This document shows positions 6,522 through 58,345 of a DNA stretch of 64,000 nucleotides, piece by piece. Source of the stretch: Natrononativus amylolyticus (GTDB lineage: Archaea; Halobacteriota; Halobacteria; Halobacteriales; Natrialbaceae); the NCBI RefSeq assembly GCF_024362525.1, contig NZ_CP101459.1, forward strand, positions 372,001 through 436,000, read 5' to 3'. How positions within the stretch are numbered: the stretch's first letter is position 1; each line of letters starts with the position of its first letter. A program made the position numbers and the translations under genes. A model generated the notes under the pieces. That model was not told the origin of the DNA. It worked only from the letters and a program-made list of their open reading frames with translations, and ran no database searches.

Positions 6522-6756
6522 GTTTTCACCTCTTCCGTCGGTGGACCGCGATTCCGATCGTGGTACGCCCCGTCGCACTCTCGGTCACGACGCGAGTGCG
6601 GACTGGAAGGTATATGCTGTACGCTAACAACAGGCATAATACTGCTGGATACGGTGGCGGACGCGCCGAAGAACTGCGCGCGTCGCCGTCGGTGAACTCA
6701 GGCGACAGTGATTACGCCGGCAAATCGCGTCGGGACCACCGCAGACCGGCGACGCA

Positions 6757-7407: not shown

Positions 7408-7488
7408 GCGTTTCACCGGAACGTCGGTGTGCGTCGCCTTGAAGCTAGTGGTGCGCGGTGGGCGTTCGGACCTCACCTCCCGTTTCCT

Positions 7489-7502
7489 CCGAACATGTAC
7501 GG
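7489..7502 (+). promoter_or_regulatory. Candidate NarO-binding inverted repeat before nosZ
   Basis: CCGAACATGTACGG is a near-perfect inverted repeat with one mismatched pair. It sits about 35 bp upstream of the nosZ TATA box, a typical place for a haloarchaeal activator. It resembles the CGAAC-x2-GTTCG type of cis element reported for haloarchaeal denitrification genes. It also lies within the upstream region of the divergent regulator gene. Confidence 0.55.
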
Positions 7503-40189: not shown

Positions 40190-43100
40190 CTACGACCGGG
40201 AGCGCTGCCGGCGGCCGAGAACCACCGCACAGACGAGGATCACGCCGACGGCGGTGAGGACGCTGAATCCGGGGATCGTGTCGGCGTCGTCGCTGTCGTC
40301 TCGGTCGTCGCTGTCGTCGTCTCGGTCGTCGGTGACGGTATCGTCGGGATCGGTCGGTGCGTCACCCGTACCGTCCGATGTGTCGTCTCGCTCGGCGGGC
40401 GTGTCGTCGTCAGGCTCGCCATCACCGTCGGTTTCACACGGATCGGTTCTGTCATCCTTTTCTTTCGCTGGGCAATCGTCATCGACGTCCGACTCATCCG
40501 GCTCCGGGCCGTCCGAACCGGAGTCATCTGAACCGTCGTGATCGTCCGAATCATCAGAGTCGTCCGAACCGTCCGAATCGTCCGAATCATCAGAGTCGTC
40601 CGAATCGTCGGAGTCGTCCGTCGCAACTACAAACGTGGTCGTGTACGTCTCCTCGTTTCCGCCGTTGTCAGCGACGGTGAGTTCGACGCTGTACGACTTC
40701 CCGTCCTCGAGGCCGAGTTCGAAGGTCGTCTCCGCGGACGTGATCTGCGTTCGGTCGTCGTCGGTCACGTCGACACCGTTGAGTTCCAGGGTGATCGAGC
40801 CCACGTCGACGCCCGAGAGTTCGTCCTCGTAGGCGAAGTGAACGGTGGTTTCGTCGGTGCCCGCCGGGAGTTCGTCCCCGTCGGCGGGCGCGACGCCGGT
40901 CAGCGTCGGCGGCGTCTCATCTATCACGAGGACGCCGTACGTCGAGAACCCGGTGACGTCGGCGACGACGAACGGCTCGTCGTCGATCCACGCGACGTTC
41001 GAGTCGACGGAATCCCACGTGCCGGTGCTATCGTCGTAGTGGTACATGGCGGCGTCGTTCACGTCGGCGCCGCCGAGTGCGTCCTCGTCGGCCGCCAGCG
41101 TGACCGTCGCGCTCTCGATCGTTCCCTGCTCGAGGTGGTAGTCGATAAACGAATCGAGTTCGGCCGTCAGGAAGCCGCCGCCGAGGTGGCCGCCCTCGAG
41201 GTTCGAGTTGACGGTGTTCTCCGAGAGTGCGACGAACAGCTCCTCGCTTTTGATCGCCTCGTCGGCGTCGTCGACGACGTCGAACTCGACGGTCGTTCCC
41301 GTCGCATCGATCTCGATGACGCCGTCTTCGAGCGTGAACCGCGTGTCGATGGCCACAGAGGCGGTGTTCTCTCCCTCGTTACCGGCGCGGTCGGTTCCGA
41401 CGGCGGTGACGGTGTAGTTGCCCGACTCGTCGAACTCGAGCGTGCCGGTGAACCGCGTCGCGTCGGTCGTCGCGGGGTCCACGGTCACCGTTGCGGGCGA
41501 TTCGGTGCCGTCGGCCTCCTGAACCGTCGCCGAGACTTCGGGGACGTCCGCGAGCGGCTCGGTGCTCTCGACGACGACCGTCGCCGACTCGCTGTCGACG
41601 TCCTCGACGGTGACGGCCATGTCGGGCGCCTCGCGGTCGATCACGAGCGTTTCGGTGGCCTGGGCCATCCCGCCGTTGTCGCGCTCGTCGGCGGCGACGG
41701 CCGTCAGTTCGTACCGGCCGTCGTCGGGGATGTCCACGACCGGAATCTCCGCGACCCAGATGTCGCCCTCGAGGGTCGCCTCGACCGGGACGCTGTAGGT
41801 CGTCTCGAGCGAACTGACGAGCACCGTCACCTCGTCGACCGGGTGGTCGGCCTCGACGGCCACCTCGACGGTGGCCTCGTCGCTCGCGTACACGAACTCG
41901 TCGTTTGCCTCGAGGACGTCGCCGTCGGCCGTGACGAGATCGCTCGCCGTCGAGTGGCCCTCGACGGCGACGATCGTCGGCTCGACGGTCGCCTGGGTCA
42001 CGACGAGCTGGCCGGCGGACCGGTCTCCCAGATCGAGGTCGTAGGTACCTGGCTGCTCGAGTGTCGCGCTGACGTTGAGCGCGCCGAGGTGGTACCAGCC
42101 GGGTTCGAGCGTCACTTCTTGACTGCCGAGAACGTCGGTTTCGCCGGTGTCGACGTTCGTGGCGGTGAGTTCGATCTCCTCGGGACCGTCGACGGTGCCG
42201 GCCTGGTAGATGCTTCCGGTAACGTAGAACTCCTGCCCGTCGGCGACCTCGACCGCAGAGACGCCCGCGGCGATCACCTGGATGTCTGATTCGGCGGAGA
42301 CGACCTCGATCGTCCCGGCGTGGCGGTCGCCCAGCTCGAGGTCGTACGTGCCCGCCTCTTCGGGCGCGTACGTGACATTGAGCGCGCCGAGGTGGTACCA
42401 GCCGGGTTCGAGCGTCGCCTCTTGGCTCCCCACCACCGCGGACTCGCCGGTGTCGACGTTCGTGGCGGTGAGTTCGATCTCCTCGGGGCCGTCGATGTTG
42501 CCAGCCTGGTAGATGCTCCCGACGACGGACAGTTCCTCGCCCTCGACCAGTTCGATCTCGGAGGCGGAGGCGGCAATCACCTGGATGTCCGACTCGGCTG
42601 GCTCGACCTCGATCGTTCCGGCGTACCGATCGCCCAGCTCGAGGTCGTACGTGCCGGGTTCGGCGGGTGCGTACGTGACGTTGACCCCGCCGAGGTGGTA
42701 CCAGCCGGGTTCGAGCGTCACTTCCTGGCTACCCACGACCGTCGTCACGTTGGTGTCTGTGTTCGTGGCAGTGAGTTCGATATCTTCGGGGCCGTCGATG
42801 GTTCCGTTCTGGTAGATGCTGCCGGTGACGTGGATCTCCTCGCCGTCGACGAGTTCGACCGCAGAGACGCCCGCGGCGATCACCTGGACGTCCGATTCGG
42901 CGGAGACGACCTCGATCGTGCCGGCGTGGCGGTCGCCTAACTCGAGGTCGTACGTACCCGCCTCGTCGGGCACATAGGTGATGTTGAGCGCGCCCAGGTG
43001 GTACCAGCCGGGCGTGAGCGTTTCCTCCTGTGTCCCAACGACCTCCGTTTCACCGGTGTCGACGTTCGTGGCGGTGAGTTCGATCGTCTCGGTTCCCTCG

Positions 43101-46100
43101 ATGTTGCCGGCCTGGTAGATACTCCCGACGACGGACAGCTCCCCGCCTTCGACGAGTTCGATCTCCGAGACGGAGGCGGCAATCACCTGGATGTCTGACT
43201 CGGCGGCGACGACTTCGACCGTGCCGACGTCCCGTTCGCCGAGGACCAGGTCGTAGGTGCCGGGTTCGTCGGGAACGAACGTCACGTTGAGCGCGTCGAG
43301 GTGGTAGTAACCGGGCTCGAGCGTCACGTCCTGACTGTCGACCACGGTGCTCTCCCCGGTCTCCTGATTGATCGCGGTGAGTTCGATCGTTTCCGTCGCT
43401 TCGTCGCTGCCGTTCTGGTACACGCTTCCGGTCACGTGGACCGGCTCGCCCTCGACCACTTCGACCTCCGAGAGCGACGATCCGATCACCTGGATGTCGG
43501 TGGCGACTTCGTTGACGGCGATCGTCGCGACCTCCCGGTCGCCCAGCTCGAGGTCGTACTCTCCGGGTTCGTCGGGCGCGTACGTGACGTTGAGCGCGCC
43601 GAGGTGGTAGTAGCCGGGTGCGAGCGTGACCTCCTGACTCCCCACGACCGCTGTTTCGTTGGTCTCGGTGTTCGTGGCGGTGAGTTCGATCTCCTCGGTT
43701 CCCTCGACGTTGCCGGCCTGGTAGATGCTCCCGACGACGGACAGCTCCTCGCCGGCGGTGACTTCGACCGCCGAGGCGGAGGCGGCGATCACCCGAATGT
43801 CGGATTCGGCGGGCTCGACCTCGATCGTCCCAGCAGTACGGTCTCCCAGCTCGAGGTCGTAAGTGCCGGGTTCCGGGACAGCGGTGACGTTGAGCGCACC
43901 GAGGTGGTAGAAGCCGGGTTCCAGGGTTACTTCCTGACTGCCGAGAACGTCGGTTTCGCCGGTATCGACGTTCGTGGCGGTGAGCTCGATCGTTTCGGGC
44001 CCATCGACGTTCCCGCCCTGGTAGATGCTCCCGATGACGTGCAACTCCTCGCCTTCGACGAGTTCGACGGCCGAGGTGCCGGCGGCGATGACCTGGATGT
44101 CCGATTCGGCGGGCTCGACATCGACCGTGCCGGCGTGGCGGTCGCCCAGCTCGAGATCGTACGTGCCGGGTTCTGGAACGTAGGTGACGTTGAGTGCCCC
44201 GAGGTGGTAGAAACCGGGCTCGAGGGTTACCTCCTGGCTGCCCACCACCGTCGTCTCGTTGGTCTCGGTGTTCGTGGCGGTGAGTTCGATTTCTTCGGGC
44301 CCGTCGACGTTGCCGGCCTGGTAGACGCTCCCGACGACGGACAGTTCCTCGCCTTCGACGAGTTCGATCTCCGAGGCGGAGGCGGCGATCACGGTGATAT
44401 CCGATTCGGCGGGTTCGACATCGATCGTTCCGGCGCTTCGGTCGCCTAGCTCGAGGTCGTAGGTGCCTGGCTCGGACTCGAACGTAATATTGAGCGCCCC
44501 GAGGTGATAGAAGCCGGGCTCGAGGGTCACCTCCTGACTGCCGAGAACGTCGGTTTCGCCGGTATCGGTGTTCGTGGCGGTGAGCTCGATTTCTTCGGGC
44601 CCGTCGACGTTTCCGGCCTGGTAGATGCTCCCGGTGACGGACAACTCCTCGCCCTCGACCGCCTCGACGCTGGAGACACCAGCGGCAATTACGGTGATAT
44701 CCGACTCGGCGGGTTCGACATCGATCGTTCCGGCGCTTCGGTCGCCTAGCTCGAGTTCGTAGGTGCCGGGTTCGGCGGGCGCATACGTGACGTTGAGCGC
44801 GCCGAGGTGGTAGTAACCGGGTGCGAGCGTGACCTCCTGACTCCCCACGACCGCCGTTTCGTTAGTTTCGGTGTTCGTGGCGGTGAGTTCGATCGTCTCG
44901 GTTCCCTCGATGGTGCCGGCCTGGTAGATGCTCCCGACGACGGACAGCTCCTCGCCTTCGATCAGTTCGATCTCGGAGGCGGAGGCGGCGATCACCTGGA
45001 TGTCCGACTCTGCAGGTTCGACTTCGACCGTGCCGGCGTTCCGGTCGCCCAACTCGAGGTCGTATGATCCGGCGTCGTCCGGCTCGAACGAGGCGGTGAT
45101 GTTGAGCGCACCGAGGTGGTACCAGCCCGGTTCGAGCGACACCTCCTGACTGCCGAGTTCGATCGGGTCGCCGCCGTCGGTCGGGGTGGCAGTTAACGTA
45201 ATCTCCTCTGGCCCCTCGATAGTGCCTGCCTGGTAGATGCTCCCGACGACGTGGAACTCGTTGCCCCCGACGACCTCTGTTTCGGAGGTGGAGGCGGCGA
45301 TCACCTGAATATCCGAGTACCGGTGCTCGAGCGAGACGGTGTCGACGACAAGGCCGTTGAGCGTGATCGTAACCTCGTCGCTGTCGACGTCGCCGGGGAG
45401 TGCGTCCTCCGTCGGCGTCCACTCGAACTCGACGCCGTCTCGGTCGAGACCGGGTTCGACCGTAACCGTCTGGTTCATCTCCTCGTCGACGTGCTCGCCG
45501 CTGATCGTCAGCGCGACGGCGACGTCACCGGCGGCGTCGCCGCCGTTGTAGAGGTCGCCGCTGATCGTCACGGTCTCGTCGACGCCGACGTCTGTGTGGC
45601 TCACGGAGCCGCCGTAGACGAAGATGTCCGCGCCCTCGAGGACGGTCACCGTCCCCGCGTGGGTGCCGCTCACGCTCACGTCGAAGGTTCCCGCGTTCTC
45701 GAACGCGTGCGTGAACGCGACCTGGTCGGTGTCGCCCGCCTCGAGCCGGATCGTTTCGGTGGCGACGCTATCGCCGTCGACCTCGAGCGCGACGGTGACG
45801 TCGCCGTCGGCGTCGCCCGCGTTTTCGACCGTCGCCGTGACCGTCGCGGACTCGCCTGCGACGAGTTCGTCGGCGTCCACGGCGGCGTCGGTCACCTCCG
45901 CAACGGCGTCCGGTTCGTCGCTGAACACGCCGAAGGTGCCGAACGCGTCGATGTTCGTGGCGTAGACGTACCCTTCGGTCGTGTTCACCCCCGAGTCGTA
46001 GGACTCGTCGGCCGGCGACGACCAGGACTCGCTCAGCCGCCAGAACTCGAGCGTCGATTCGTCGACGCTGGCCAGGTCGGCGGGATCGTAGTGGACGAAC

Positions 46101-49100
46101 AGCGAACTGACGTGCGCGTCCTCTCCCGTCGCGCTGACGGTGACGTACGCGCCGAGCGGGTGGACGTCCGCCGGCAGATCGTCCGGTTCGTCGGCGGCGT
46201 TTAGCTGGACGTCCTGGGCCTCGAACGAGAGGGTGACGCCGTCCAACTCGAGGTTCGAGACGGTGTTGTCCGTCGCGCCCTGGAACGACTGGAAGCCGGA
46301 GCCGCTCTCGGTGACCGTCGCGGTGTCGACGGTGTTCCCCGAGGCGTCCGAGAAGACGATGCCCGCGGCCTCGCTGTTCGTTACCGAGAGACCGGTTATC
46401 GTGTTGTCGTGACTGTCCGGTCCGGCGTAGAACCCGTGCGAGCCGCTGTCTGTGATCGTAACGTCGGTGAACGTGTTCTCGCTCGAGCGACTGGCGAGGC
46501 TGAGCGCGTTGCCGTCGTTGTCGTGCAACTCGAGGTCGTGGAACTCGCTGTCGTCGGCGACGCTCAATTGAATCCCGCTGTCAGCGTTGTCGGTGGCGGT
46601 CACGGAGTGGAAGACGTTTCCGGTTACCGGCGTGTTCCACCGCGTGTCACCCATGAGGAGGACGCCGACGCCGTCGTTTTCGACGGCAGTGACGTCCGTC
46701 AGCAGGTTTCCATTACTGTCGTCGACGATGATGCCGTTCCAGCCGTTTCTGGCGACGCTAACGTTCTCGAAGGCGTTGCCCTGGTTGCTCTCGAGGTTCA
46801 GCCCGTACATCGAGTTGTCGTCGGCGACGACGTCGGTGAACGTGTTCGACGAGCCGGTCGTCCGCAGACCGGCGCGGTTCGAGGAGGCGTTCAGCCCGAC
46901 GAACTCGTTGTTCGTCGACCCCAACGTCACCTGTACTGCACCCGGATAGAGCGCACTTCCACTGATTTCGTTCCCGTACGCGTGGACATCGGTGAACGTG
47001 TTGCCGTGGCTCGAGCCGCCGCCCCAGCCGACCTGGAGTCCGCGGTTGTCGTTGTACCGAGTCGTAAGGTTCGAGACGTCGTTGTCGTTGGCCGCACGGA
47101 GGTTGAATCCGGCTCCGTTGTACTCGGTGACGACGTCGCTGACGACCCCGTTGCTGGCCTCGTTATAGTGCAACCCGACGTCCCAGCCCGAGACCGTCAC
47201 GTTGCTGACCGTGACGCCGTCGGCGCCGGTGACCGCGATCCCGTACTGGGTTCCGTCGTCGTCGAGGTTTTCGCCCTGGACGGTGTGTCCCATCCCGTCG
47301 AGAACCACGTCGTCTGCGGTGATCTCGAGGCAGGTTGCGCCGCCCTCGAGGTCGCCGGCTAGCACGTAGTTTCCGGGTGTATCGATGACGGTACAGGCGT
47401 CGATTTCGACGACGCCCGCCGGGAGTATCGACACCTGTTCGGCGACCGAATCGTCGGCGCTCCGTACGGTGACGTAGTTCTGACCGACGTCCTCGGGCGT
47501 CGTCGACAAGGTGAGCGCCAGGTTGTCGCTGCCGCCGCCGTCCAGGGAGAGCTCCCCGGAATCGACGACCGTTCGGTCGAAGTCCTCGAGTTCGATCGTT
47601 CCGGTCCCCTCGAGGTCACCTGCGTTGGTGACCGTGACGTCGACCACGAGATCCGTCCCTGCATCGATCGGCGAGTTCGTCGAGACGGTCGCGATCTCGA
47701 AGAAGGCGGGATCAGGGGTGTCGTCGAGGGGATCTTCGTCAAGGAACGGTTCGAAATCGATCGCCGATCCGACCGAGTCGCCCTGGCCAGTTCCCTCGCC
47801 GCCCGGTCCCCTCTCGTGACCCCACCAGTTGTTCGTCGCGTTCAGACACGGTGGGTCGTTCCAGCCAGTACAGGAGTCAACTGCATAGGTTACACCCGCT
47901 CCGTTGCCCGTAATCGCGTTCCAGTGAAGCTGGACATCGGCCTCCTCATCTGGCTCACCGTGTACCTGAATTCCAGCCCCCGTATTGTCTCTAATGGCGT
48001 TTTCGGTGACGGTGACCTCATCAAAGGTCGGACTGAACCCACCGGAGACATCTAGTGAAAGTCCGTCCTGATTGTTCGAGATCGTATTCGCCTCGATTTC
48101 CATTGTACTCCCGGATCCGCTCTGCTCCAGGTCGAGTCCGTAACCGGTGTTCTCGCTGATCTCGTTGCCGGAGATCGTCAGCTGCCTCAATGCGGTTCCG
48201 TAGATTCCATCACCGGAATTCTCCGTGATCTCGTTGCCGATCACCTGCAGTCCCGTGGCGACAACCACGTCGACCCCGTCGGCGTTTCCGTTTATTGTGT
48301 TGTCTTCGACGTGGACATTGTTGGATCGGGAAAGGGACAAACCGACCCCTTCGTTGTCGAGAATTTCGTTTGCCGTCAGCTGGGCTCCGTCGACCGACTG
48401 GTGGGAGTGCTCGCCCAGTACGACCCCGTCACCACCGTTTTCGCTGACTGAAGTGTTCGTCACGACGGGTTCAAGGGCACTCAACAGGCCCAACCCGTCG
48501 CCCTCGTTTCCGCCGATCGTATTGGTGGTGATGACGGCGTAGTCGGACTCCTCGACCCAGACCCCCGTTGAGTCTCCGTCGAACACCTCGTTGTCGTGGA
48601 CGAACGGGGCGTCCGTTGAGTAGAGATGAATGCCGGTACCGCCTCGCTCGGATATCGTGTTGTGCGATAGATCCGTGTCGCCGACCTCCTGAATCCGAAT
48701 GCCGTCTCCGGTGCCGGCGTCGATTGTCGCGTTCGAAATCGTCGTTGCATCCGCCGTATCGACGTAGATGCCGGCAACCGTCCCGCCCACCACGTTGGTG
48801 TCCGCTACGGAGACGTTTCGGGCCTCGGTGACGTGTAGTCCAAGCCCGTCCTCGAGAGTGAAGTCGCTGATATCGACGTCACCACTGGCGACGATCTGTA
48901 TCGACGCCAGTTCGTCACCGACGTCCTCTCCTGTCAGTTCGACGCCGTCAGCGAACGCCAGGATTAGCTGTCCTGCGTCGGGATCGATGTCGTCGATGTC
49001 GTCTTCCAGAACGACCTGAATGGGGCCACCGTTGACGGTCGTATGGTCGAACTCGTGTTCGAAGTAGGTGGCGTCATTCCCCTCAATGAGCACCCCCGAC

Positions 49101-52100
49101 TGGAAGTCGTTGTCCAACACGCGGCTGTTCGGCGCTTGGTCTAACAACAGATCAGCCCGATTTCCAGCGGCGTAATTGTGTTCGACTCGAGTATCCGCCT
49201 GGTTCGAGACGGCGATGCCGTAGCCGTCGTTGTCGGTGACCTCGTTCCAGATGACGTGGGATTCGTCGAGCCAGGACACCTCGGAGTTAGCGATTCGAAT
49301 CCCATCCTCCCCGCTGCCGGAAATCGCGTTGTCGCGGACGACGGCTTCCGGTGCGCTCGAAACGGCGATCCCGCTGCGGGCGCTGTCGGTGATCGTGTTG
49401 TCGCGGACGACCGCGTCCGGAACGTGTGAGGCGCCGACCGTCCTCGTGACCCGGATGCCGTCCTCGCCGGCTCCCTCGACCGTATTGTCGACGATCGTCG
49501 GATTTCGTGCGTTCAGCGCGAGGATGTTGTCCTCGGCGCTGCCGGTGACGGTGTTGTTCTCCACCCGCGGGTCGCTCGGTCGCGTCGTTTGGGCCGACTG
49601 GGAGCCGATCTGAATGCCCGCAACCGAAAGGGACTGGGAGTACTCGTGGCTGCTGTTTGTAACCACGTTGCCCCGAATAACGGCGTCGTCGGGGGCGCCG
49701 ACACCGATGTCGGAAGAGCCGACGAGGTAGATTCCGCGCCAGCCGTTGGCGTCGATGGTATTCACTTCCACGAGCGCGTCGTCGGCGTCGGCGACGAGGC
49801 GGAGACCGGTAATAGCGTTGTTCGAAATCGTGTTTCCGACGACGTGTGCGTCACTCGACGATCGAACGACGATTCCATCCGAGTTCCCGGTCGCCTCGTT
49901 CTCCTGGACGAGCGCACCAACCCCGCCGTTCAGTTCGATCCCGTTGCGGTTGTCGTGAGCCTCGTTGTTTCGTATCTCCGGGGCGTTCGAGGATCGTAGC
50001 TCGATACCGATCCCCTGGTTCGAGGCGTCGTGGTCGAGCACCGTGTTCGCCTCGAGCAGCGCCCGGTCCGTCTCGACCAGACTGATCCCGTACCGGTTGT
50101 CCGACGCGGTGTTGGACTCGAGTTCGACGTCGTCGGAATCGACGAGGCGGATCCCGTGGAACGCGTTCTGCGTCACCGTGTTCTCCCGAAGGGACGCGTC
50201 GTTGGAGCCGCGAACGGTGATCCCGCCGGGGTGGGTCGCCATGTACGCCTGACTGGCGCTCGGTTGGGTGGTCAGCGTGCTGTGGGTAACCGTGTTCTCA
50301 GAGATCTCCGCACCGTCGCTGAACGCGACCTGAATGCCGACCGCCACGCCCTCGAGGTCGTGGCCCGAGACGTCGACGTTCGTCGAATCGACGACGAACA
50401 CCTGTGCGACGCCGTCGGGGATCTCCGGGGCGTCGGTGTCCTTCACGTAGAACAACTCCTCTCCGCCCACGGTGTTTCCGTCGACCTCGTGTTCGAAGTG
50501 GGCGAACTCCTCGCCGTCGACGAACAGCCCGGTCTCGAACGTGTTGTCGAAGACGTCCGCGTTGGTCGACTCCTTGAGGATCAGGTCGGCTTCGTGTCCG
50601 GCGGCCGCGTTCTCCTCGACGGCCGTCCCGTCCGACTGGTCGACGACGATCGCCGCGAAGTCGTTGTCGGCGATATCGTTGTTCTCTACGCGCGTATCCT
50701 GGGACTCGAGGACGATGATCCCGCTCCCCTGCGAGAGCGTGCCGGAGTTCTCCCGGACGTCGTTATCGACGACGTCGACGGCACTCGAGTCCTCGACGAC
50801 GATCCCCTCGGTGTTGTCCGAGACGTCGTTGTGTTCGACGGCCGTTCCGGTCGAGCCGACGACGTGGACGCCGTAGTCGCTGCCGGTCGCGACCGTGTTC
50901 GTCACCGAGCCACCGGTGGAGTCGGCGACCGTGACGCCGGTTTCGCCGCTGTCCGAAACGGCGTTGTCGTCGACGACCGTCCCGTCCGACCCGGAGACGC
51001 CGACCCCGCTGTCTCCGTTTCCGGTGGCGTCGTTCCCGGTCACGGAAACGTCGTCGGAGTCCGTTACGTGGATGCCGTCCCCGTCGTTGTCGTCGGCGAC
51101 GTTGCTCGAGACCGCCACGCCGGAGCCGTTCGAAACGGCGATTCCGTGTCGATCGTTTGCTGTGACGTGGTTGTCGACGACGACCGTACTGTCGGAATCG
51201 GCGACGAGGATGCCGTCATCTGCGTTGTCCGTTGCCGTGTTGTTCTCGACGGTGCTCCCAACGTCGTTCACGACGTGAATCCCGATGTCGTTCCCGGAAG
51301 CGGTGTTTGCCTCGAGTGTCGCTCCCGTCGAGCCGCCGACCTGTATCCCCGCAAACCCGTTGTCCGTCGCCGTGGCGCCTTCGACCAGCGCGCCGTCCGA
51401 GCCGACGACGTGCAGGCCGACGTGGTGCGTGTTCGTCACCTCGAGATCGGTGAGCTGTGCCCCGTCGCTGAAGGCGATCTGGAGACCAACGGCGACGTCC
51501 TCGAACGACTCGTCCGAGAGCGCGACGTCGCTCGAGTCGACGATAACCGCCTGGCGTGCATCATCCGGAACGGCCGGCTCGTCGGTACCCGAGACGTAGT
51601 AGAGCGTTCCGTCGCCGACCGCGTTGTTCGAAACCGTGTGGTCGAAGTGGGCGAGTTCGTCGCCGTCGAAGAAGACGCCCGAATCGAAGATGTTGTCCGC
51701 GAGCGTCAGGTCCGCCGAGGACTCGAGGAGGAAGTCGATCCCGGCCCCGCTGGCGGTGACGGTGTTGTTCTCGACGTGCGCCCCGTCCGAGGCGTTCAGG
51801 TGGAGGCCGTACTCGTCGACAGCCGTGATTTCGTTGTTCGTTACGACGGCATCGGCCGCATCCTCGAGGACGACGCCACCGCGCTGGTTGCCGAGGACGT
51901 TGTCCGAGACGGTGACGCCGAGAGAACTCGAAATGACGACGCGAGTGCCGTCTCTCTGTGTATTGTCGCTGATCTCGTTGTCCGCCATCACCAGACCGTC
52001 GGCGTTCGAAATCGAGACGTCGTGACTGTTACCGGTGATCGTACTGTCCCGCAGTTCGACGCCCGTCGAGTCCGAAATCGTCAGCGTCGACTCAGCGTTC

Positions 52101-52654
52101 CAGTCCGTATGCCCCGAGACTTCGGTCCCCGAAATGAGGACGTTATCGGAGTCGTGAACCGCGATTCCCTCTCGATCGTTGTTCCCGACGGTGAGGTCCG
52201 TCAGCACCGTTCCGGGCGCGTTCTCGAGCAGAATTCCGTACTCGTCGAAGTGTTCGACGGCAACGTTTTCGATCGTGACCCCGTCGACCCCGTTCAGGTG
52301 TATCCCGCGATCAGCACCCCAGGGAGCAGAGAGCACCGGTTTCTCGCTTCCGACCCCGACGAGAGCGACCTCGTCGGTCGTAATCACTAGCTCCTCGGTG
52401 TAGGTTCCGGATTCGATACAGATCGTCTCCCCCGGTTCGGCAGCGTCTATGGCCTCCTGTATCCCATCGTCCGCCGAGACGACGGCACAGCCCTCGAGGT
52501 CGGGGCCGACGGCCGACTGCGCGCCGGTGCTCGAGGCGGTTGCCGGCTCTGCTGCGACGCCGAACGGGACGAGTACAGAGCTGATCATCAACACCGAACA
52601 CACGATCGCAAACAGCCGAATACGTACAAGATTTCCCGACAATATTCGATTCAT
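40190..52654 (-). CDS. Giant secreted surface protein: beta-helices, 11 tandem repeats, Ig-like domains, PGF-CTERM
   Basis: A 4154-aa protein (one frame, 12.5 kb). A Sec-type signal (residues about 1-36) leads into a right-handed parallel beta-helix from about 45 to 1630. The entry motif is SADDGIQEAIDAAEPGETI, hundreds of N-x-V...G-I rungs follow, and the exit motif is NNWWGH. A second beta-helix spans about 1750-2170. Two CARDB-like domains come next, then 11 tandem ~101-aa repeats (about 2445-3556), Ig-like/Big-type domains, a long Asp-Ser linker, and a PGF-CTERM anchor. Numerous N-x-S/T sequons suggest N-glycosylation. A TATA box 25 bp upstream of the ATG makes a leaderless mRNA likely. 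Probable cell-surface adhesin or matrix protein; ligand unknown. Some beta-helix enzymes are lyases, so enzymatic activity is possible. Confidence 0.85.
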   Translation of the reverse strand: MNRILSGNLVRIRLFAIVCSVLMISSVLVPFGVAAEPATASSTGAQSAVGPDLEGCAVVSADDGIQEAIDAAEPGETICIESGTYTEELVITTDEVALVGVGSEKPVLSAPWGADRGIHLNGVDGVTIENVAVEHFDEYGILLENAPGTVLTDLTVGNNDREGIAVHDSDNVLISGTEVSGHTDWNAESTLTISDSTGVELRDSTITGNSHDVSISNADGLVMADNEISDNTQRDGTRVVISSSLGVTVSDNVLGNQRGGVVLEDAADAVVTNNEITAVDEYGLHLNASDGAHVENNTVTASGAGIDFLLESSADLTLADNIFDSGVFFDGDELAHFDHTVSNNAVGDGTLYYVSGTDEPAVPDDARQAVIVDSSDVALSDESFEDVAVGLQIAFSDGAQLTDLEVTNTHHVGLHVVGSDGALVEGATATDNGFAGIQVGGSTGATLEANTASGNDIGIHVVNDVGSTVENNTATDNADDGILVADSDSTVVVDNHVTANDRHGIAVSNGSGVAVSSNVADDNDGDGIHVTDSDDVSVTGNDATGNGDSGVGVSGSDGTVVDDNAVSDSGETGVTVADSTGGSVTNTVATGSDYGVHVVGSTGTAVEHNDVSDNTEGIVVEDSSAVDVVDNDVRENSGTLSQGSGIIVLESQDTRVENNDIADNDFAAIVVDQSDGTAVEENAAAGHEADLILKESTNADVFDNTFETGLFVDGEEFAHFEHEVDGNTVGGEELFYVKDTDAPEIPDGVAQVFVVDSTNVDVSGHDLEGVAVGIQVAFSDGAEISENTVTHSTLTTQPSASQAYMATHPGGITVRGSNDASLRENTVTQNAFHGIRLVDSDDVELESNTASDNRYGISLVETDRALLEANTVLDHDASNQGIGIELRSSNAPEIRNNEAHDNRNGIELNGGVGALVQENEATGNSDGIVVRSSSDAHVVGNTISNNAITGLRLVADADDALVEVNTIDANGWRGIYLVGSSDIGVGAPDDAVIRGNVVTNSSHEYSQSLSVAGIQIGSQSAQTTRPSDPRVENNTVTGSAEDNILALNARNPTIVDNTVEGAGEDGIRVTRTVGASHVPDAVVRDNTITDSARSGIAVSSAPEAVVRDNAISGSGEDGIRIANSEVSWLDESHVIWNEVTDNDGYGIAVSNQADTRVEHNYAAGNRADLLLDQAPNSRVLDNDFQSGVLIEGNDATYFEHEFDHTTVNGGPIQVVLEDDIDDIDPDAGQLILAFADGVELTGEDVGDELASIQIVASGDVDISDFTLEDGLGLHVTEARNVSVADTNVVGGTVAGIYVDTADATTISNATIDAGTGDGIRIQEVGDTDLSHNTISERGGTGIHLYSTDAPFVHDNEVFDGDSTGVWVEESDYAVITTNTIGGNEGDGLGLLSALEPVVTNTSVSENGGDGVVLGEHSHQSVDGAQLTANEILDNEGVGLSLSRSNNVHVEDNTINGNADGVDVVVATGLQVIGNEITENSGDGIYGTALRQLTISGNEISENTGYGLDLEQSGSGSTMEIEANTISNNQDGLSLDVSGGFSPTFDEVTVTENAIRDNTGAGIQVHGEPDEEADVQLHWNAITGNGAGVTYAVDSCTGWNDPPCLNATNNWWGHERGPGGEGTGQGDSVGSAIDFEPFLDEDPLDDTPDPAFFEIATVSTNSPIDAGTDLVVDVTVTNAGDLEGTGTIELEDFDRTVVDSGELSLDGGGSDNLALTLSTTPEDVGQNYVTVRSADDSVAEQVSILPAGVVEIDACTVIDTPGNYVLAGDLEGGATCLEITADDVVLDGMGHTVQGENLDDDGTQYGIAVTGADGVTVSNVTVSGWDVGLHYNEASNGVVSDVVTEYNGAGFNLRAANDNDVSNLTTRYNDNRGLQVGWGGGSSHGNTFTDVHAYGNEISGSALYPGAVQVTLGSTNNEFVGLNASSNRAGLRTTGSSNTFTDVVADDNSMYGLNLESNQGNAFENVSVARNGWNGIIVDDSNGNLLTDVTAVENDGVGVLLMGDTRWNTPVTGNVFHSVTATDNADSGIQLSVADDSEFHDLELHDNDGNALSLASRSSENTFTDVTITDSGSHGFYAGPDSHDNTITGLSVTNSEAAGIVFSDASGNTVDTATVTESGSGFQSFQGATDNTVSNLELDGVTLSFEAQDVQLNAADEPDDLPADVHPLGAYVTVSATGEDAHVSSLFVHYDPADLASVDESTLEFWRLSESWSSPADESYDSGVNTTEGYVYATNIDAFGTFGVFSDEPDAVAEVTDAAVDADELVAGESATVTATVENAGDADGDVTVALEVDGDSVATETIRLEAGDTDQVAFTHAFENAGTFDVSVSGTHAGTVTVLEGADIFVYGGSVSHTDVGVDETVTISGDLYNGGDAAGDVAVALTISGEHVDEEMNQTVTVEPGLDRDGVEFEWTPTEDALPGDVDSDEVTITLNGLVVDTVSLEHRYSDIQVIAASTSETEVVGGNEFHVVGSIYQAGTIEGPEEITLTATPTDGGDPIELGSQEVSLEPGWYHLGALNITASFEPDDAGSYDLELGDRNAGTVEVEPAESDIQVIAASASEIELIEGEELSVVGSIYQAGTIEGTETIELTATNTETNETAVVGSQEVTLAPGYYHLGALNVTYAPAEPGTYELELGDRSAGTIDVEPAESDITVIAAGVSSVEAVEGEELSVTGSIYQAGNVDGPEEIELTATNTDTGETDVLGSQEVTLEPGFYHLGALNITFESEPGTYDLELGDRSAGTIDVEPAESDITVIAASASEIELVEGEELSVVGSVYQAGNVDGPEEIELTATNTETNETTVVGSQEVTLEPGFYHLGALNVTYVPEPGTYDLELGDRHAGTVDVEPAESDIQVIAAGTSAVELVEGEELHVIGSIYQGGNVDGPETIELTATNVDTGETDVLGSQEVTLEPGFYHLGALNVTAVPEPGTYDLELGDRTAGTIEVEPAESDIRVIAASASAVEVTAGEELSVVGSIYQAGNVEGTEEIELTATNTETNETAVVGSQEVTLAPGYYHLGALNVTYAPDEPGEYDLELGDREVATIAVNEVATDIQVIGSSLSEVEVVEGEPVHVTGSVYQNGSDEATETIELTAINQETGESTVVDSQDVTLEPGYYHLDALNVTFVPDEPGTYDLVLGERDVGTVEVVAAESDIQVIAASVSEIELVEGGELSVVGSIYQAGNIEGTETIELTATNVDTGETEVVGTQEETLTPGWYHLGALNITYVPDEAGTYDLELGDRHAGTIEVVSAESDVQVIAAGVSAVELVDGEEIHVTGSIYQNGTIDGPEDIELTATNTDTNVTTVVGSQEVTLEPGWYHLGGVNVTYAPAEPGTYDLELGDRYAGTIEVEPAESDIQVIAASASEIELVEGEELSVVGSIYQAGNIDGPEEIELTATNVDTGESAVVGSQEATLEPGWYHLGALNVTYAPEEAGTYDLELGDRHAGTIEVVSAESDIQVIAAGVSAVEVADGQEFYVTGSIYQAGTVDGPEEIELTATNVDTGETDVLGSQEVTLEPGWYHLGALNVSATLEQPGTYDLDLGDRSAGQLVVTQATVEPTIVAVEGHSTASDLVTADGDVLEANDEFVYASDEATVEVAVEADHPVDEVTVLVSSLETTYSVPVEATLEGDIWVAEIPVVDIPDDGRYELTAVAADERDNGGMAQATETLVIDREAPDMAVTVEDVDSESATVVVESTEPLADVPEVSATVQEADGTESPATVTVDPATTDATRFTGTLEFDESGNYTVTAVGTDRAGNEGENTASVAIDTRFTLEDGVIEIDATGTTVEFDVVDDADEAIKSEELFVALSENTVNSNLEGGHLGGGFLTAELDSFIDYHLEQGTIESATVTLAADEDALGGADVNDAAMYHYDDSTGTWDSVDSNVAWIDDEPFVVADVTGFSTYGVLVIDETPPTLTGVAPADGDELPAGTDETTVHFAYEDELSGVDVGSITLELNGVDVTDDDRTQITSAETTFELGLEDGKSYSVELTVADNGGNEETYTTTFVVATDDSDDSDDSDDSDDSDGSDDSDDSDDHDGSDDSGSDGPEPDESDVDDDCPAKEKDDRTDPCETDGDGEPDDDTPAERDDTSDGTGDAPTDPDDTVTDDRDDDSDDRDDSDDADTIPGFSVLTAVGVILVCAVVLGRRQRSRS
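40193..40273 (-). other. PGF-CTERM archaeosortase signal of the giant protein
   Basis: The last 27 residues are PGF, a hydrophobic helix (SVLTAVGVILVCAVVLG) and an Arg-rich tail (RRQRSRS). This is the tripartite signal cleaved by archaeosortase A, with lipid attachment of the protein to the membrane. Confidence 0.85.
40274..40630 (-). repeat. Asp/Ser-rich linker of the giant protein
   Basis: A low-complexity DDSDDSDD-type tract of about 115 residues, with the DNA unit TCGTCCGAA/TCGTCAGAG repeated at 40548-40620. It acts as a spacer lifting the protein off the membrane and through the S-layer. The 9-bp repetition is a likely site of length variation. Confidence 0.75.
41985..45322 (-). repeat. 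Eleven tandem ~300-bp repeats in the giant protein
   Basis: Each unit of about 101 aa has SDIQVIAA..S, GEELSVVGSIYQAGN, IELTATN.(D/E)T, SQEVTLEPGWYHLGALNVTY, then PGTYDLELGDR..GTI. Units 2-5 and 8-11 alternate between an AASASEIEL head and an AAGVSAVEL head, so a two-unit (about 600 bp) higher-order period is visible. The DNA copies are close enough that unequal crossing-over is expected. Confidence 0.85.
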
Positions 52655-52792: not shown

Positions 52793-53917
52793 CTACGGTT
52801 CCCGATCCGAGATCCGCGACAGCGTGACGGTGACGCGCGCTCCGCGCGGGTAGTTGTCGCCTATCTCGAGGCGCCCGTCGAACGCCTCGAGCAGGTTCGT
52901 CACCAGATAGAGGCCGACGCCCATCCCCGAGCGACTGTCCAGACGTGCGTCGGGGTCGGCGAGCAGTTCCTTCTGGGCGTCGGGGATGCCGACGCCGTCG
53001 TCCGCGATTTCGACGGTCGCGCGGTCGGCCGTGGCGGCGGTCGTCACCGCCACCCGGGGCGTGGCTCGATCCGAGTGATCCACGGCGTTCTCGAGGAGGT
53101 GCGTGAACACGGACTCGAGCATCGGCGACGCGGACACGATTATCGGCTCGTCTTCGACCCCGGAGCGGTCGACGTCGATCTCGAGGTTGCGGTCGCGCCG
53201 CAGTCGTGCTACCGCCGACTCGAGGACGGCGAGCAGGTCGCAGGGCTCGCGCTCGAGGTCGTCGCCGGCGATGACGTCGATGACTTCCGCGGCGGTATCG
53301 GTGAGATCGACGGCGTGGTGGGCGGCCTCCAGGAGCGCCTCGATCGCGTCTTCGTCTGCCGGATCGGCGCGCGTCCGGAGCTGGTCGCCCAGGCCGACGA
53401 TCATGCTCACGTCGTTCCGGATGTCCTGTCTGACGATCTGGTTCAACAGTGCGAGCCGGTGGTTTCGGTCGACGAGCGTGCGCTGGTGTCGGGCGCGCTC
53501 GATGGCGTACCGAAGGGTCCGTACAATCAGTTCGCCGGTCGCGGTTCCCTTGTTCAGGTAGTCCTGTGCACCGCGCTGGATGGCCTCGACGCCGACGCTC
53601 GTCTCGTTCTGTCCGGTCAGGACGACGACCGGGACGTTCGGCGCGTGCGCGACCATCCGGTCGACCGTCTCGAGACCTCTGCTGTCCGGCAGCATGAGAT
53701 CGAGGAGAACCACGTCGGGCGCCGTCGTCCGGACCCGCTCGAGCCCGTCGGCGAGGCGGTTTACGTGGACGACGTCGACGACCTCGATCGGACCGCGCTC
53801 CCCGTCCGGATCGCGCGCCGATTGGTGTTCGTGAATGAGTCGTTCGACGAACCGCGCGTCCGCGTCCCTGTCTTCGACGAGGAGTAATTCGACGCCGGCC
53901 GTCGCGGTGGTCGTCAC
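52793..53917 (-). CDS. Receiver-histidine kinase with Gln at the H-box
   Basis: A 374-aa protein. The receiver has acidic residues at VEDRDAD, phospho-acceptor D73 (VLLDLMLPDSRG), T in VVVLTGQNE and K in YLNKG. Then comes a dimerisation region where the usual RHDIRND box reads VRQDIRNDVSM, so the phosphorylatable His is Gln. The HATPase is intact: HLLENAVDHSD, IADDGVGIPDA, GMGVGLYLV. GTG at 53917 is chosen with a GAGGTGAG ribosome site. Loss of the His suggests a non-autophosphorylating or atypical signalling role. It is divergent to the HxlR-receiver gene. Confidence 0.8.
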   Translation of the reverse strand: MTTTATAGVELLLVEDRDADARFVERLIHEHQSARDPDGERGPIEVVDVVHVNRLADGLERVRTTAPDVVLLDLMLPDSRGLETVDRMVAHAPNVPVVVLTGQNETSVGVEAIQRGAQDYLNKGTATGELIVRTLRYAIERARHQRTLVDRNHRLALLNQIVRQDIRNDVSMIVGLGDQLRTRADPADEDAIEALLEAAHHAVDLTDTAAEVIDVIAGDDLEREPCDLLAVLESAVARLRRDRNLEIDVDRSGVEDEPIIVSASPMLESVFTHLLENAVDHSDRATPRVAVTTAATADRATVEIADDGVGIPDAQKELLADPDARLDSRSGMGVGLYLVTNLLEAFDGRLEIGDNYPRGARVTVTLSRISDREP

Positions 53918-54087: not shown

Positions 54088-54897
54088 ATGGTTCGCCATG
54101 ACAGTGGCGTTTCGGTCGACGACCGCGTCGCACTGGACGTGCTCTCGTTGCTCTCGGGGAAGTGGCACCCGGTCGTCGTTCTCACTCTCACGCGCAACGG
54201 GCCGATGGGGTTCAACGAACTGCTCGAGGCCATTCCCGACGTCTCCGGAAAGGTGCTCTCGGGGACGCTCGAGGCGCTGTCCGACGCCGGGTTAGTCAGG
54301 CGACGCGTCGTCAGCGAATCCCCGCTGCGAGTCGAGTACACGCTCACCGCGGCCGGACGGGACACGGAGTCGATCTTCGCGGAACTCACGCGGTGGGGCG
54401 GGCGTCACCTCGAGTCCACGACGCCGAGCGTGGTGCTCGCGGACGGCGACCGGCGGATCACCGACATGTACGGCGAGTGGCTGACCGACCGGTACACCGT
54501 CTTTCGAACGCACAACGGCGACGAGCTCGGGTCGCACCTCGAGGAGACGACGGACGTCGTGATCTTCGACGAGGGGCTTCCCGGCGTCGATCCGCGGGAC
54601 GTTCCGGACATGGTCGGCTCGACCTGCCGGACGATCGCACTCGTCGGGGACCGCCCCGGCGCTGGGCTTCTCGAGATCGAGTGCGACGACGTCCTCCGGA
54701 AACCGGTCGTCCGGGAGACGGTTCTCGAGGCGATCGACGAGCAGCTGCGCCGCCGCGGCGAACCCGCCGCCCGACGCGACCGGGCGGCGCTGGCCGCGAA
54801 ACTCGAGCTCCTCGAGTCGATCCATCCGCGTGAGCGGCTTCGGACGGCCGAGGCGTACGTCGACGCGCGCGAGCGACTCGCCGACCTCGCGGAGTAA
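54088..54897 (+). CDS. HxlR-type winged helix fused to receiver and HalX domains
   Basis: A 269-aa protein. Residues about 12-108 are HxlR-type: LSLLSGKWHPVVVLTLTRNG, FNELLEAIPDVSGKVLSGTL, ESPLRVEYTLTAAGR. Residues about 114-210 form a receiver domain: acidic pair in LADGDRR, D161 in VIFDEGLPGV, and K205 in VLRKPVV. Residues about 225-269 are the HalX helix (KLELLESIHPRERLR). HxlR proteins respond to small electrophiles or redox; here the DNA-binding head is joined to a phospho-receiver. It is between the atypical kinase and the 7TM kinase, so a shared circuit is likely. Confidence 0.8.
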   Translation: MVRHDSGVSVDDRVALDVLSLLSGKWHPVVVLTLTRNGPMGFNELLEAIPDVSGKVLSGTLEALSDAGLVRRRVVSESPLRVEYTLTAAGRDTESIFAELTRWGGRHLESTTPSVVLADGDRRITDMYGEWLTDRYTVFRTHNGDELGSHLEETTDVVIFDEGLPGVDPRDVPDMVGSTCRTIALVGDRPGAGLLEIECDDVLRKPVVRETVLEAIDEQLRRRGEPAARRDRAALAAKLELLESIHPRERLRTAEAYVDARERLADLAE

Positions 54898-55010: not shown

Positions 55011-57017
55011 GTGCCACACGAGTTCACGACGGGACACGCGCTGAGTCTCCTCGTCGTCGGACTTCTGAATCTCGCACTCGCCGCCTACATCCTCCGGACG
55101 CGCTCGAGGCACGACGTGATCCCGCTCGGGATTTTCCTCGTGGGGATTGCGCTGTGGACGATCCCACAGGGTCTGCTCCTCGTCGAAACCGACCCCGCGG
55201 TCGGGTTCGCGCTGGCGAAGACGGTCGACTCCGGCGCCGTCATCATGTCGACCGGACTGTTTCACTTCGCGATGGCCTACGCCGGCCGCGAGGACTGGCT
55301 CCGCCTCCGTCGGCTCGGAGCCGTCTACGCGATCACCGGCGCCTGGGTCGTGCTGACGTGGACGAACCCCGCCCACGGGCTGATGCACGATCCGATGCAG
55401 TTCACCGAGGTTCTGCTCCCGGTCGAAGAGTACCAGAACCCGATCTACTGGGTGTACGTCTTTTACAACTGGACGCTCTCGGGCGCGGGGATCTACGTGT
55501 TCTTCCTCGAGTATCTCGACGCCAGGGGTAGCGACGTCTACCACAAGCAGGCGCGGCTGGTTCTGCTGGCGCCGCTGATTCCGGGCGTCGCGAACGTGCT
55601 CGCGTTCAACGAGACGACGGCGATCAACTACTCCGTCTGGGGCTTCGGCGCGACCGGCATCCTGATCGCCGTCGCCCTCTATCGGTATCGCTGGCTCGAC
55701 CTCGTTCCGGTCGCGCGCGATCGGGTCATCGACGGGATGCAGGACGGCTACCTCGTCGTCGATCACAAACGGCGCGTGGTCGATCTCAACCCCGCGGCGC
55801 GAACGCTGCTCGAGGACGACAACGTCGTCGGCAGCCCGATCGACACCGTGTTGCCGGAGTGTCGCCCCCTCCTCGACGGCGAGACGCGCGAGGTGACGAT
55901 CACCAGGAATGGGGCCGTCGTCGACGCGAGCGTCTCCGCTCTCGCGGACGACCGGATCGACGGGTTCGTGTTGATGCTCAGGGACGTCACCGAGCAGCGC
56001 CGGGCCGAAAAGCGCTTTCAGGCGCTCATCGAGAACGTCTCCGATCTGATCACGGTCGTAGACGACGACGGACGGGTCACATACGCCAGCCCGTCCGTTC
56101 GCCCCGCCATCGGCTACCGGCCCGAGGAACTCGCCGGCGAGTTCCTCCTCGAGTTCGTTCACGCCGACGACCGGTCCGACGCAGCCGAGGCGTTCGCCGC
56201 GCTTCGAGACGGACCGGCCGCCGAGACGCGCTTCGAGTACCGTCTGCGCCACCGCGACGGGTCGTGGGTCGTCCTCGAGGGCGTCGCCGTCGACTTGCTC
56301 GAGAACGACATCGTCGGCGGCATCGTCATCAACTCCAGGGACGTCACCGAGCGCAACGACCGCGAACGCGAACTCGAGCGAACTAACCGGCGCCTCGAGG
56401 AGTTCGCGGGCGTCATCAGTCACGACCTGCGGACGCCGCTGCGGATCGCCAAAACGTACGCGGAGTTCGCCGAAGCCTCCGCGAAGGCGGACGACTTTCG
56501 GGCGGTCTCCGACGCACACGACCGCATGGAGCGGATGATCACGAGTCTGCTGACGATGGCCCGGACGGGAGTCACGCTCGAGGAGCCGTCGCCCGTGGTC
56601 CTGGCGGCGGTCGTCGAGGACGCGTGGGAGATCACCCGCCGGGACGGGGCGACGCTCGACTGCGATCTCGATCTCGACTGGTCGGTCGTCGGCGACCGCG
56701 ATCAGTTGCTCCACGTCTTCGAGAACCTCTTTCGGAACGCGATCGAGCACAACGACGCGCCCGTCGCGCTCCGGGTGAGTCACCTCGGGGACGATCCCGA
56801 CCGCGGATTCGCCGTGGCGGACGACGGCGTCGGTATCCCGCCGGAGTACCGGGAACTGGTGTTCGAACGCGGGCAGACGACGAGCGAGGAGGGCGCCGGA
56901 TTCGGCCTCGCGATCGTCCGCGACGTGGTCGAAGCTCACGGCTGGACGATCGACGCCTGCGAGAGCCGCGACGGCGGCGCTCGGTTCGAAATCACGTTCG
57001 ACTCGCCGACGGCCTGA
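55011..57017 (+). CDS. 7TM-PAS-PAS sensor histidine kinase
   Basis: A 668-aa protein. Seven N-terminal membrane helices (residues about 8-225) are the histidine-kinase 7TM sensing type, followed by a PAS domain (VIDGMQDGYLVVDHKRRVVD). A second PAS domain (FQALIENVSDLITVVDDDGR) precedes the canonical kinase core: H471 in VISHDLRTPLRI, N-box NLFRNAIEHND, G1 VADDGVGIPPE, and G2 GAGFGLAIV. GTG at 55011 is preceded by GGAGG 4-8 nt upstream and a TATA box (CAATATATTTC). With a functional His it could phosphorylate the receiver of the upstream HxlR fusion. Confidence 0.88.
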   Translation: MPHEFTTGHALSLLVVGLLNLALAAYILRTRSRHDVIPLGIFLVGIALWTIPQGLLLVETDPAVGFALAKTVDSGAVIMSTGLFHFAMAYAGREDWLRLRRLGAVYAITGAWVVLTWTNPAHGLMHDPMQFTEVLLPVEEYQNPIYWVYVFYNWTLSGAGIYVFFLEYLDARGSDVYHKQARLVLLAPLIPGVANVLAFNETTAINYSVWGFGATGILIAVALYRYRWLDLVPVARDRVIDGMQDGYLVVDHKRRVVDLNPAARTLLEDDNVVGSPIDTVLPECRPLLDGETREVTITRNGAVVDASVSALADDRIDGFVLMLRDVTEQRRAEKRFQALIENVSDLITVVDDDGRVTYASPSVRPAIGYRPEELAGEFLLEFVHADDRSDAAEAFAALRDGPAAETRFEYRLRHRDGSWVVLEGVAVDLLENDIVGGIVINSRDVTERNDRERELERTNRRLEEFAGVISHDLRTPLRIAKTYAEFAEASAKADDFRAVSDAHDRMERMITSLLTMARTGVTLEEPSPVVLAAVVEDAWEITRRDGATLDCDLDLDWSVVGDRDQLLHVFENLFRNAIEHNDAPVALRVSHLGDDPDRGFAVADDGVGIPPEYRELVFERGQTTSEEGAGFGLAIVRDVVEAHGWTIDACESRDGGARFEITFDSPTA

Positions 57018-57149: not shown

Positions 57150-58142
57150 TCACAGTCCGCGCTGGCCTCGAGTCGGTGTCAGCGGTTGCTGAGTCGCGTC
57201 GGAGTCGGGATCGCCCCCCTCGGTTTCGGCTTTCCGGACGAGTTCGCTGAACTTCTCCGACCGCGCCGCGATTCGGTCCGCCGTCTCGCTGTCGGGAGTG
57301 TCGTCGCGCGCCTCTACGAGGAACGTGGTGATCACGACTGTTTTCACCCAGGGCTTGATGAACCCCGTGTAGGCGGTGAGTACCACCCCGGCGACGACGA
57401 CCCAGCCGACGACCTCGAGCGTACTCGAGAGGCCGCCGAGGACGCTCGCCAGCGGCGTCATCGCCAGCAGGAAGGCGAACGTTACCGCGTACATCCCCAG
57501 GACGATCAACAGCGTCGAGCCGAGGACGGGCTTCCAGTTCTTTCCGTAGAGGACGACGCCGTCTCTGGCCGCTCGCCAGGGGTTCTCCTCGTCGACGGTG
57601 AACATGTAGGCGATGATCGCCTCGTCGATGTAGGACGCGGCGACGGCGACCGCCCGCCCGAGCAGGCGGATGAGGTTTCGCAGCCCCGAGGAGAACGAAA
57701 ACAGGCTCGAGACCGACACGACGCGCCCGTTGAACTGCTTGATGACCGCCTTTACCAGCTGATCGATTGCGAACAGCGCGCTCGCTTCCACGAAGTGCGA
57801 TCGAACCTGCGATTTTCCGTAGCGGAGCTGTCCCGAGGGGACCTCTCCGGTGTCGATGATGTGTGCGATAACGGCGATGTGAGCCGCTTTGATCATGTAC
57901 AGGACGTACCTGCTGAACAGCCGCCAGGCGCCGACGAAGATCGCGATCGCGACGAGCAAGCCGACGACTGCGATCCATCCCGAAATCGTTCCCCAGTCGA
58001 GGAGCGTGAGTCCGAGCCAGACGACGACCCCGAAGTAGAGGATCGAAAGCAGGCCGAGCAACACGCCGACTCCCATGCGTAACAGGACGAACGGCATCGT
58101 CCTGACGAAAATCCCCGTGGCCTTTCCGAAGTGGAGTACCAT
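57150..58142 (-). CDS. Polytopic membrane protein of unknown function
   Basis: A 330-aa protein with about six membrane helices, in two groups: FVLLRMGVGVLLGLLSILYF and WIAVVGLLVAIAIFVGA early, then LGSTLLIVLGMYAVTFAFLL and VVGWVVVAGVVLTAYTG late. The conserved central segment (AHIAVIAHIIDTGEVPSGQL) contains His residues, followed by a polar loop. No family is recognised. The start at 58142 discards a non-hydrophobic extension of the frame. Confidence 0.65.
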   Translation of the reverse strand: MVLHFGKATGIFVRTMPFVLLRMGVGVLLGLLSILYFGVVVWLGLTLLDWGTISGWIAVVGLLVAIAIFVGAWRLFSRYVLYMIKAAHIAVIAHIIDTGEVPSGQLRYGKSQVRSHFVEASALFAIDQLVKAVIKQFNGRVVSVSSLFSFSSGLRNLIRLLGRAVAVAASYIDEAIIAYMFTVDEENPWRAARDGVVLYGKNWKPVLGSTLLIVLGMYAVTFAFLLAMTPLASVLGGLSSTLEVVGWVVVAGVVLTAYTGFIKPWVKTVVITTFLVEARDDTPDSETADRIAARSEKFSELVRKAETEGGDPDSDATQQPLTPTRGQRGL

Positions 58143-58345
58143 GTCAGTGCGAATGGTTCTCAACCAGCAAAAACAATCACGAACGTGAGGGTAACCGACG
58201 CGGTTACGCGGTAGTAACCTTCCCTCGACGGCTGCCAAAGCGGTTTGCGACCGGACGGTGGTATCCGCTCGAATGCCTCCCGGCGGATTCGGGTCCTGAC
58301 TCTCCGTCCCAGTACACACTTGCGACTGGGACTCGAAATTACGGT

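Follow-up and report, generated by a model that had tools for sequence, protein, structure and literature searches.

The gene considered here encodes a predicted transcription regulator, called P0001, of the haloarchaeon Natrononativus amylolyticus. It lies in a window of 64,000 nucleotides (contig NZ_CP101459.1, positions 372,001 to 436,000 of the forward strand; all coordinates below are those of the window). The protein joins an HxlR winged helix to a receiver and a HalX-like tail, and a kinase gene, P0002, is encoded divergently from it. As a fusion, P0001 turns out to be ordinary, and its role as a phosphorylation switch is doubtful. The unexpected variant is the pairing of a regulator that bears a pseudo-receiver with a receiver-bearing kinase without its catalytic histidine. 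From residues and gene associations, we give an even chance to P0001 being a DNA-binding regulator that is read out by contact and not by its own phosphorylation. The wider proposal is that both partners at the kinase-regulator interface have lost phosphotransfer, that the phosphate stops on the receiver of the pseudo-kinase, and that a contact signal then reaches the transcription factor, as a stable archaeal mode comprising at least 41 gene pairs and controlling giant surface proteins. This is put forward tentatively, as somewhat less than an even bet.

The five catalytic residues of a receiver are denoted DD, D, T and K, the second of the DD positions (DD2) being the direct metal ligand, and any receiver without one or more of them is termed a pseudo-receiver (PMC12632262; this paper and PMC5847659, PMC13269768 and PMC4211667 below are cited from partial text). 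In P0001 these positions hold D119, G120, D161, V186 and K205. Two of the five catalytic residues are lost and the protein is a pseudo-receiver by the above definition; judging from the residues, it is presumably not phosphorylated. A first-pass annotation of the window had singled out D161 and K205, and the alignment indeed places them in the canonical D and K columns. The functional receiver assumed there is retained as far as these two residues are concerned, but not at DD2, which lacks the acid, nor at the Thr/Ser position.

The same holds well beyond this one protein. Full-length matches among 125 genomes of Natrialbaceae number 42 in the group of P0001 (P0001 included) and 16 in a second one, with L094 as a single outlier; 28 more members were fetched after a profile search across 392 genomes of the order. 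The resulting 87 members, with P0001, were aligned and the tree was built without the five catalytic columns; the trees in this work are quick searches without bootstrap. L005 was removed ahead of counting because it duplicates L046 on the same contig; L004 and L006 were left out on this ground too. P0001 falls into a clade of 44 members with a Shimodaira-Hasegawa-like approximate likelihood ratio test (SH-aLRT) value of 100, in which at least one catalytic residue is missing in 44/44 and no receiver is complete (0/44). By column, an acid is present at DD2 in 3 and Thr or Ser in 5 members, while D is kept in 40 and K in all 44, and with these two conserved a residual phosphorylation of P0001 may still occur. 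The three members with Glu at DD2 (L066, L071 and L077) fail at the Thr column only and have a Thr one residue later. Outside the clade, complete receivers are found in 37 of the 43 relatives, and pseudo-receivers in the other six. The phospho-controlled design originally suggested for P0001 does therefore fit the sister groups, judging by their residues, rather than the clade of P0001 itself.

The clade has also acquired positions of its own. Three residues after the Thr column, 42/44 members have Arg (Arg189), where the relatives mostly have E, Q or D, and 35/44 have Cys199; both Cys199 and Arg189 are rare or absent in the relatives. In helix alpha1 of the receiver, the docking helix, R123 and W131 are present in 44/44 members. 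This helix is tighter in the clade than outside it (1.23 vs 1.59 bits), while alpha2 (2.64 vs 1.51 bits) and alpha3 (2.90 vs 1.94) are looser, a pattern that argues for contact through the docking face.

On the other side of the interface, P0002 has the domain order Rec-DHp-CA, with a complete receiver of its own and a kinase core that lacks the catalytic His. The earlier description of an atypical kinase divergently upstream is thus confirmed, as a REC-HATPase protein that has Gln in place of the His. Searching the fetched loci with a profile reveals a P0002-like kinase at 41 of the 44 clade loci, with none at L058, L063 and L070. The kinase's own receiver is complete (ED, D, T, K) in 41/41. 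The phospho-His, by contrast, is lost in 38/41, where Q, T, S, K, R or E replaces it, and the remaining three have Glu for the N-box Asn. Altogether, this Asn is kept in 32 and lost in 9 of the 41. Among the partners of the relatives, the His is kept in 16/16 in group 3 and in all of group 2 except L078 and L087.

As a control, the kinase profile was run against 41 genomes of the family. This gave 27 long matches (E 5e-85 or better), 25 of which adjoin an HxlR-REC-HalX gene. The other two are G123, which begins at a contig end and has Arg for His, and G013, which is unpaired and keeps the His. The next 18 best matches, unpaired and covering the DHp-ATPase half only, keep the His in 18/18 (16 by pattern and two by eye). 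Since the unpaired matches keep the His, its loss is specific to the paired kinases and no general trait of this kind of kinase in these genomes.

The two partners seem to have been inherited together. Like the regulators, the clade kinases form one group (41 rows, SH-aLRT 100), and the pairwise identities of regulators and kinases are correlated with r = 0.72 (41 members, 820 pairs). For four genomes with two copies each, both proteins indicate the same copy in 48/52 comparisons, which are non-independent. In broad outline, the two trees mirror each other. The agreement is imperfect because of one diverged regulator subclade (L063, L064, L067, L069, L070, L072, L073, L075 and L076), in which the kinases of L064, L067, L069, L072 and L073 sit near that of the window despite far-diverged regulators. 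A strict rule of joint decay of both partners was considered and rejected; it holds in the pseudo-receiver clade and has exceptions in groups 2 and 3.

Separately, a second lineage was noted (L080, L088, L089 and L093) in which the receiver Asp is replaced by Ala and the Lys by Asp. The partner kinases of L080, L088 and L093 have lost the N-box Asn and kept the His. L089 had been scored as live through its second kinase while its real partner looks broken, and its cell should be left out of the count.

A possible source of phosphate and a possible target are found beside the regulator, in neighbourhoods taken as ca 6 kb per side, several contigs ending sooner. An intact seven-transmembrane (7TM) PAS kinase directly downstream had been described for the window, and the gene there, P0003, is indeed a 7TM-PAS-HisKA-HATPase kinase with the motif HDLRTP. 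A similar 7TM kinase occurs at 19/44 clade loci, with the H, N, G1 and G2 boxes intact in 19/19, and at none of the loci elsewhere (0/16 and 0/27, that is 0/43). A giant beta-helix gene occurs at 21/44 clade loci and 0/43 relatives, the count being made up of 19 by similarity to the protein of the window plus L059 and L073 by Pfam. The Fisher p values, which ignore relatedness, are 4e-8 for the beta-helix gene and 3e-7 for the 7TM kinase. At two further loci of the clade, L051 and L062, large beta-propeller proteins stand in place of the beta-helix protein.

It is the combination of pseudo-receivers throughout the clade, partners without the His or the N-box Asn, mirrored trees, a live 7TM kinase and a beta-helix neighbour that leads us to propose control by contact. 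Starting from the sensor side, P0003 or another kinase would phosphorylate the receiver of P0002; the phosphate probably comes from the live 7TM kinase and is probably accepted by this receiver. The phosphorylated receiver would then alter the DHp-ATPase part of P0002, as phosphorylation of Rec does in LvrB. This part, unable to pass the phosphate on, would hold or release the pseudo-receiver of P0001, the old kinase-regulator docking face being the likely route. Finally, the HxlR domain would switch the divergent promoter region and, through it, the surface-protein gene.

The individual elements of this proposal have counterparts in known systems. In a Foldseek search, the best match of P0002 is LvrB (PDB 8vc9), followed by complexes of HK853, with DivL (PDB 4q20) lower down. 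LvrB is a Rec-controlled histidine kinase of Leptospira that shares the Rec-DHp-CA order, and phosphorylation of its Rec reshapes the Rec-DHp-CA dimer (PMC13269768). However, it keeps the catalytic His (H161), which is Gln in P0002 and lost in nearly all clade kinases. DivL of Caulobacter, a kinase core turned docking module, binds its regulator by the docking face without kinase activity (PMC4211667), and the His-less core is shared by P0002. There, the bound regulator is canonical and phosphorylated, whereas the presumed partner of P0002 is a pseudo-receiver and the phosphate presumably resides on P0002's own receiver. Bacterial pseudo-receivers have lost catalytic residues as P0001 has, and DD2 is likewise the position that is most often non-acidic; only 2/20 of the cases there are non-orphan, most being orphans without an obvious partner (PMC12632262), while P0001 is archaeal and has an adjacent, co-inherited partner kinase.

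It is important to point out that a number of observations speak against contact control. D161 and K205 would not have to be conserved under pure contact control, and D121, present in 43/44 clade members, might help to bind metal in these receivers. Within the clade, L066, L071 and L077 keep the partner His along with the acidic DD2. Outside it, complete receivers occur despite a His-less partner (L078, L087) or one without the N-box Asn (L083), and at L091 and L137 the receiver is incomplete and the partner intact. Within ca 6 kb, the 7TM kinase or the beta-helix gene is present at fewer than half of the loci. Covariation between the two proteins gives no support either: the 60 highest-ranking pairs in the clade are spread about as expected, and over all 71 pairs there are 12 receiver-DHp pairs vs 6.4 expected, a slight excess that can be explained by the split between clades. 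In the same way, a scan of 40 of the 44 regions upstream of the regulators for an operator dyad found none conserved, the top counts being 3/40 with 5-base arms and 1/40 with 6-base arms vs at most 3 and 2, respectively, after shuffling.

The foremost alternative is the one originally suggested for the window, in which D161 of P0001 receives its phosphate straight from P0003, and the receiver in this state switches the HxlR domain. The conserved D and K columns, the live 7TM kinase next door and the complete receivers of most relatives speak for it. However, P0001 lacks both DD2 and Thr/Ser, no clade receiver is complete, the 7TM kinase is found at 19/44 loci only, and P0002 is left without a clear role. 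We thus regard this alternative as unlikely. From that suggestion, the coupling of an HxlR domain to a two-component system stands, while phosphorylation of D161 by the neighbouring kinase is doubtful and, given the missing DD2 and Thr/Ser, not the best reading for P0001.

Another option considered is that the pseudo-receiver itself senses a ligand or the redox state, for example via the clade-specific Cys199, with P0002 as a mere neighbour. Cys199 and Arg189 are characteristic of the clade, and there are structures of YodB, of the HxlR family, after diamide treatment and with bound quinone, according to their PDB titles. Since Cys199 lies outside the HxlR domain, and a co-inherited and co-decayed partner kinase is left unexplained, this is rather improbable. 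Less probable still is a receiver that serves as a dimerisation scaffold only, with the regulator always on and controlled by its amount. The loss of catalytic residues and the freely varying alpha2 and alpha3 would agree with this, but not the strong conservation of the docking helix alpha1, including R123 and W131, nor the retention of the partner at 41/44 loci. Finally, P0002 might act as a phosphatase or sink on another response regulator and be paired with P0001 by co-regulation only. This is very improbable, as the regulator next to it would hardly carry phosphate, 9/41 kinases have lost the N-box Asn too, and the mirrored trees indicate P0001 as the partner.

Contact control of P0001 would bear on a more general problem. 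How bacterial pseudo-receivers are turned on and off remains a mystery according to PMC12632262, whose authors are aware of no publication on what the archaeal ones do. Our literature search, with subscription journals largely outside it, turned up this review and a study of Clostridioides but no archaeal pair of a pseudo-receiver and a His-less Rec-kinase, and no functional study of HxlR-REC-HalX regulators. P0001 comes with a conserved partner gene that is adjacent and co-inherited, with a sensor kinase that is live and with a candidate target, in haloarchaea available in culture. This makes pseudo-receiver switching directly testable, and recommends the haloarchaeal pair for experiments on how 'dead' signalling proteins go on working.

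The fusion itself is real. Pfam alone is clear for HxlR and weak for the rest of P0001, with the receiver (E 0.066) and HalX (E 0.2) both under the cut-offs. In an alignment of 42 rows (A1), E values of 0.001 or below are obtained for HxlR in 42/42, HalX in 17/42 and Response_reg in 10/42. The rows of A1 and of alignment A2 that come from loci end one residue short, with the positions discussed here unaffected. The AlphaFold2 model, built on an input alignment of 78 sequences, has a mean predicted local distance difference test score (pLDDT) of 92.1 and a predicted template modelling score (pTM) of 0.63. It displays a winged helix, a receiver at residues 114-221 and two C-terminal helices at 227-245 and 255-268. 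By Foldseek, its first part resembles YodB/HxlR structures and its second part CheY-like receivers, in line with the fusion proposed in the first-pass annotation. The tail is best called HalX-like, the support coming mainly from the relatives and the modelled helices. The closest HxlR/YodB structures (PDB 7bzd, 5hs7) share the winged helix with ca 32% identity over ca 100 residues, but their chains of ca 100-130 residues have neither receiver nor HalX tail.

The fusion had been thought out of the ordinary for HxlR domains, and this does not hold, since Galperin et al. (2018) list 'HalX, REC-HalX, HxlR-REC-HalX' for Halobacteria in table text (PMC5847659); a novel domain fusion was rejected on this ground. 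Domain order and archaeal class are shared with P0001. The regulators are listed there by architecture only, and that text mentions neither pseudo-receivers nor a His-less partner kinase, which are both features of the P0001 clade. The genome searches described above returned full-length relatives, and their occurrence across family and order indicates that the architecture is more than chance. The genome of the window has four HxlR matches, one of which is P0001. The named plasmids that hold members belong to Natrialbaceae. Viral copies were also set aside: the match at the two loci concerned covers no more than a part of the HxlR domain.

A TATA-like box lies upstream of P0001 and is similarly placed in many of the upstream regions inspected. 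Its distance of ca 28 nucleotides from the start codon suggests leaderless transcripts for P0001 and those loci, a reading based on general promoter knowledge. The features of the window are collected in Table 1.

Table 1. Positions of the regulator, its partner kinase and neighbouring features in the window.
Feature	Position	Strand	Basis
P0001, HxlR-(pseudo)receiver-HalX regulator, 269 residues	54088..54897	+	ATG at 54088, stop at 54897; domain search, AlphaFold2, Foldseek
HxlR winged helix, residues 21-110	54148..54417	+	PF01638 E 8e-22; YodB/HxlR fold
Receiver fold, residues 114-221, active site incomplete	54427..54750	+	alignment, AlphaFold2, Foldseek
Gly120 codon, site of the metal-binding acid DD2 in complete receivers	54445..54447	+	alignment
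Asp161 codon, phospho-acceptor column kept	54568..54570	+	alignment
Val186 codon, Thr or Ser in complete receivers	54643..54645	+	alignment
Lys205 codon, kept	54700..54702	+	alignment
HalX-like helical tail, residues 227-268	54766..54891	+	AlphaFold2 helices; PF08663 E 0.2 in P0001
TATA-like box, ca 28 nucleotides 5' of the P0001 start codon	54060..54069	+	sequence; general promoter knowledge
Divergent intergenic region, presumed control region	53918..54087		gene order
P0002, REC-DHp-ATPase pseudo-kinase, 374 residues from the likely start (in-frame start at 54040 possible)	52793..53917	-	domain search, Foldseek
Gln codon at the P0002 phospho-His site	53426..53428	-	sequence comparison
P0003, 7TM-PAS-PAS-HisKA-HATPase kinase, H, N, G1 and G2 boxes intact	55011..57017	+	domain search, box check
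Giant secreted beta-helix/NosD repeat protein, 4154 residues, presumed target	40190..52654	-	domain search; recurs beside the regulator

The C-terminus of the giant protein resembles what we take to be a PGF-CTERM sorting signal; in an NCBIfam search of this protein at E <= 0.1, the PGF-CTERM model was not listed. The genome of the window has only five beta-helix genes, when matches in one frame are counted as one gene. A second, smaller one lies in the window itself, ca 30 kb away (10824-11402, + strand, in a frame of 464 residues). The island recurs in altered gene order on annotated plasmids: that of Natronorubrum bangense holds a beta-helix gene, a 7TM kinase, a response regulator and a divergent winged helix, and those of Natrarchaeobaculum sulfurireducens and Natronosalvus rutilus carry the island as well.

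Outside the pseudo-receiver clade, the members examined in this way have surroundings of another kind. L078 and L126 adjoin deacetylase-like and glycosyltransferase genes for polysaccharides, and a polysaccharide cluster lies next to a Halorientalis member; such surroundings were noted for L078, L126 and L177. With beta-helix genes beside the clade and polysaccharide genes beside others, the whole HxlR-REC-HalX family may serve the cell surface.

Some minor observations concern further genes. In the window, positions 57153-58319 (- strand) encode a protein of 388 residues with no Pfam match, a relative of which adjoins the regulator at L045. At L153, an HxlR domain lies at the end of a 304-residue frame (6589-7500, - strand), which may be overlong. 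In other families, L134, L138-L145, L149 and L150 start or overlap a long downstream kinase frame of ca 800-1980 residues in an operon-like arrangement.
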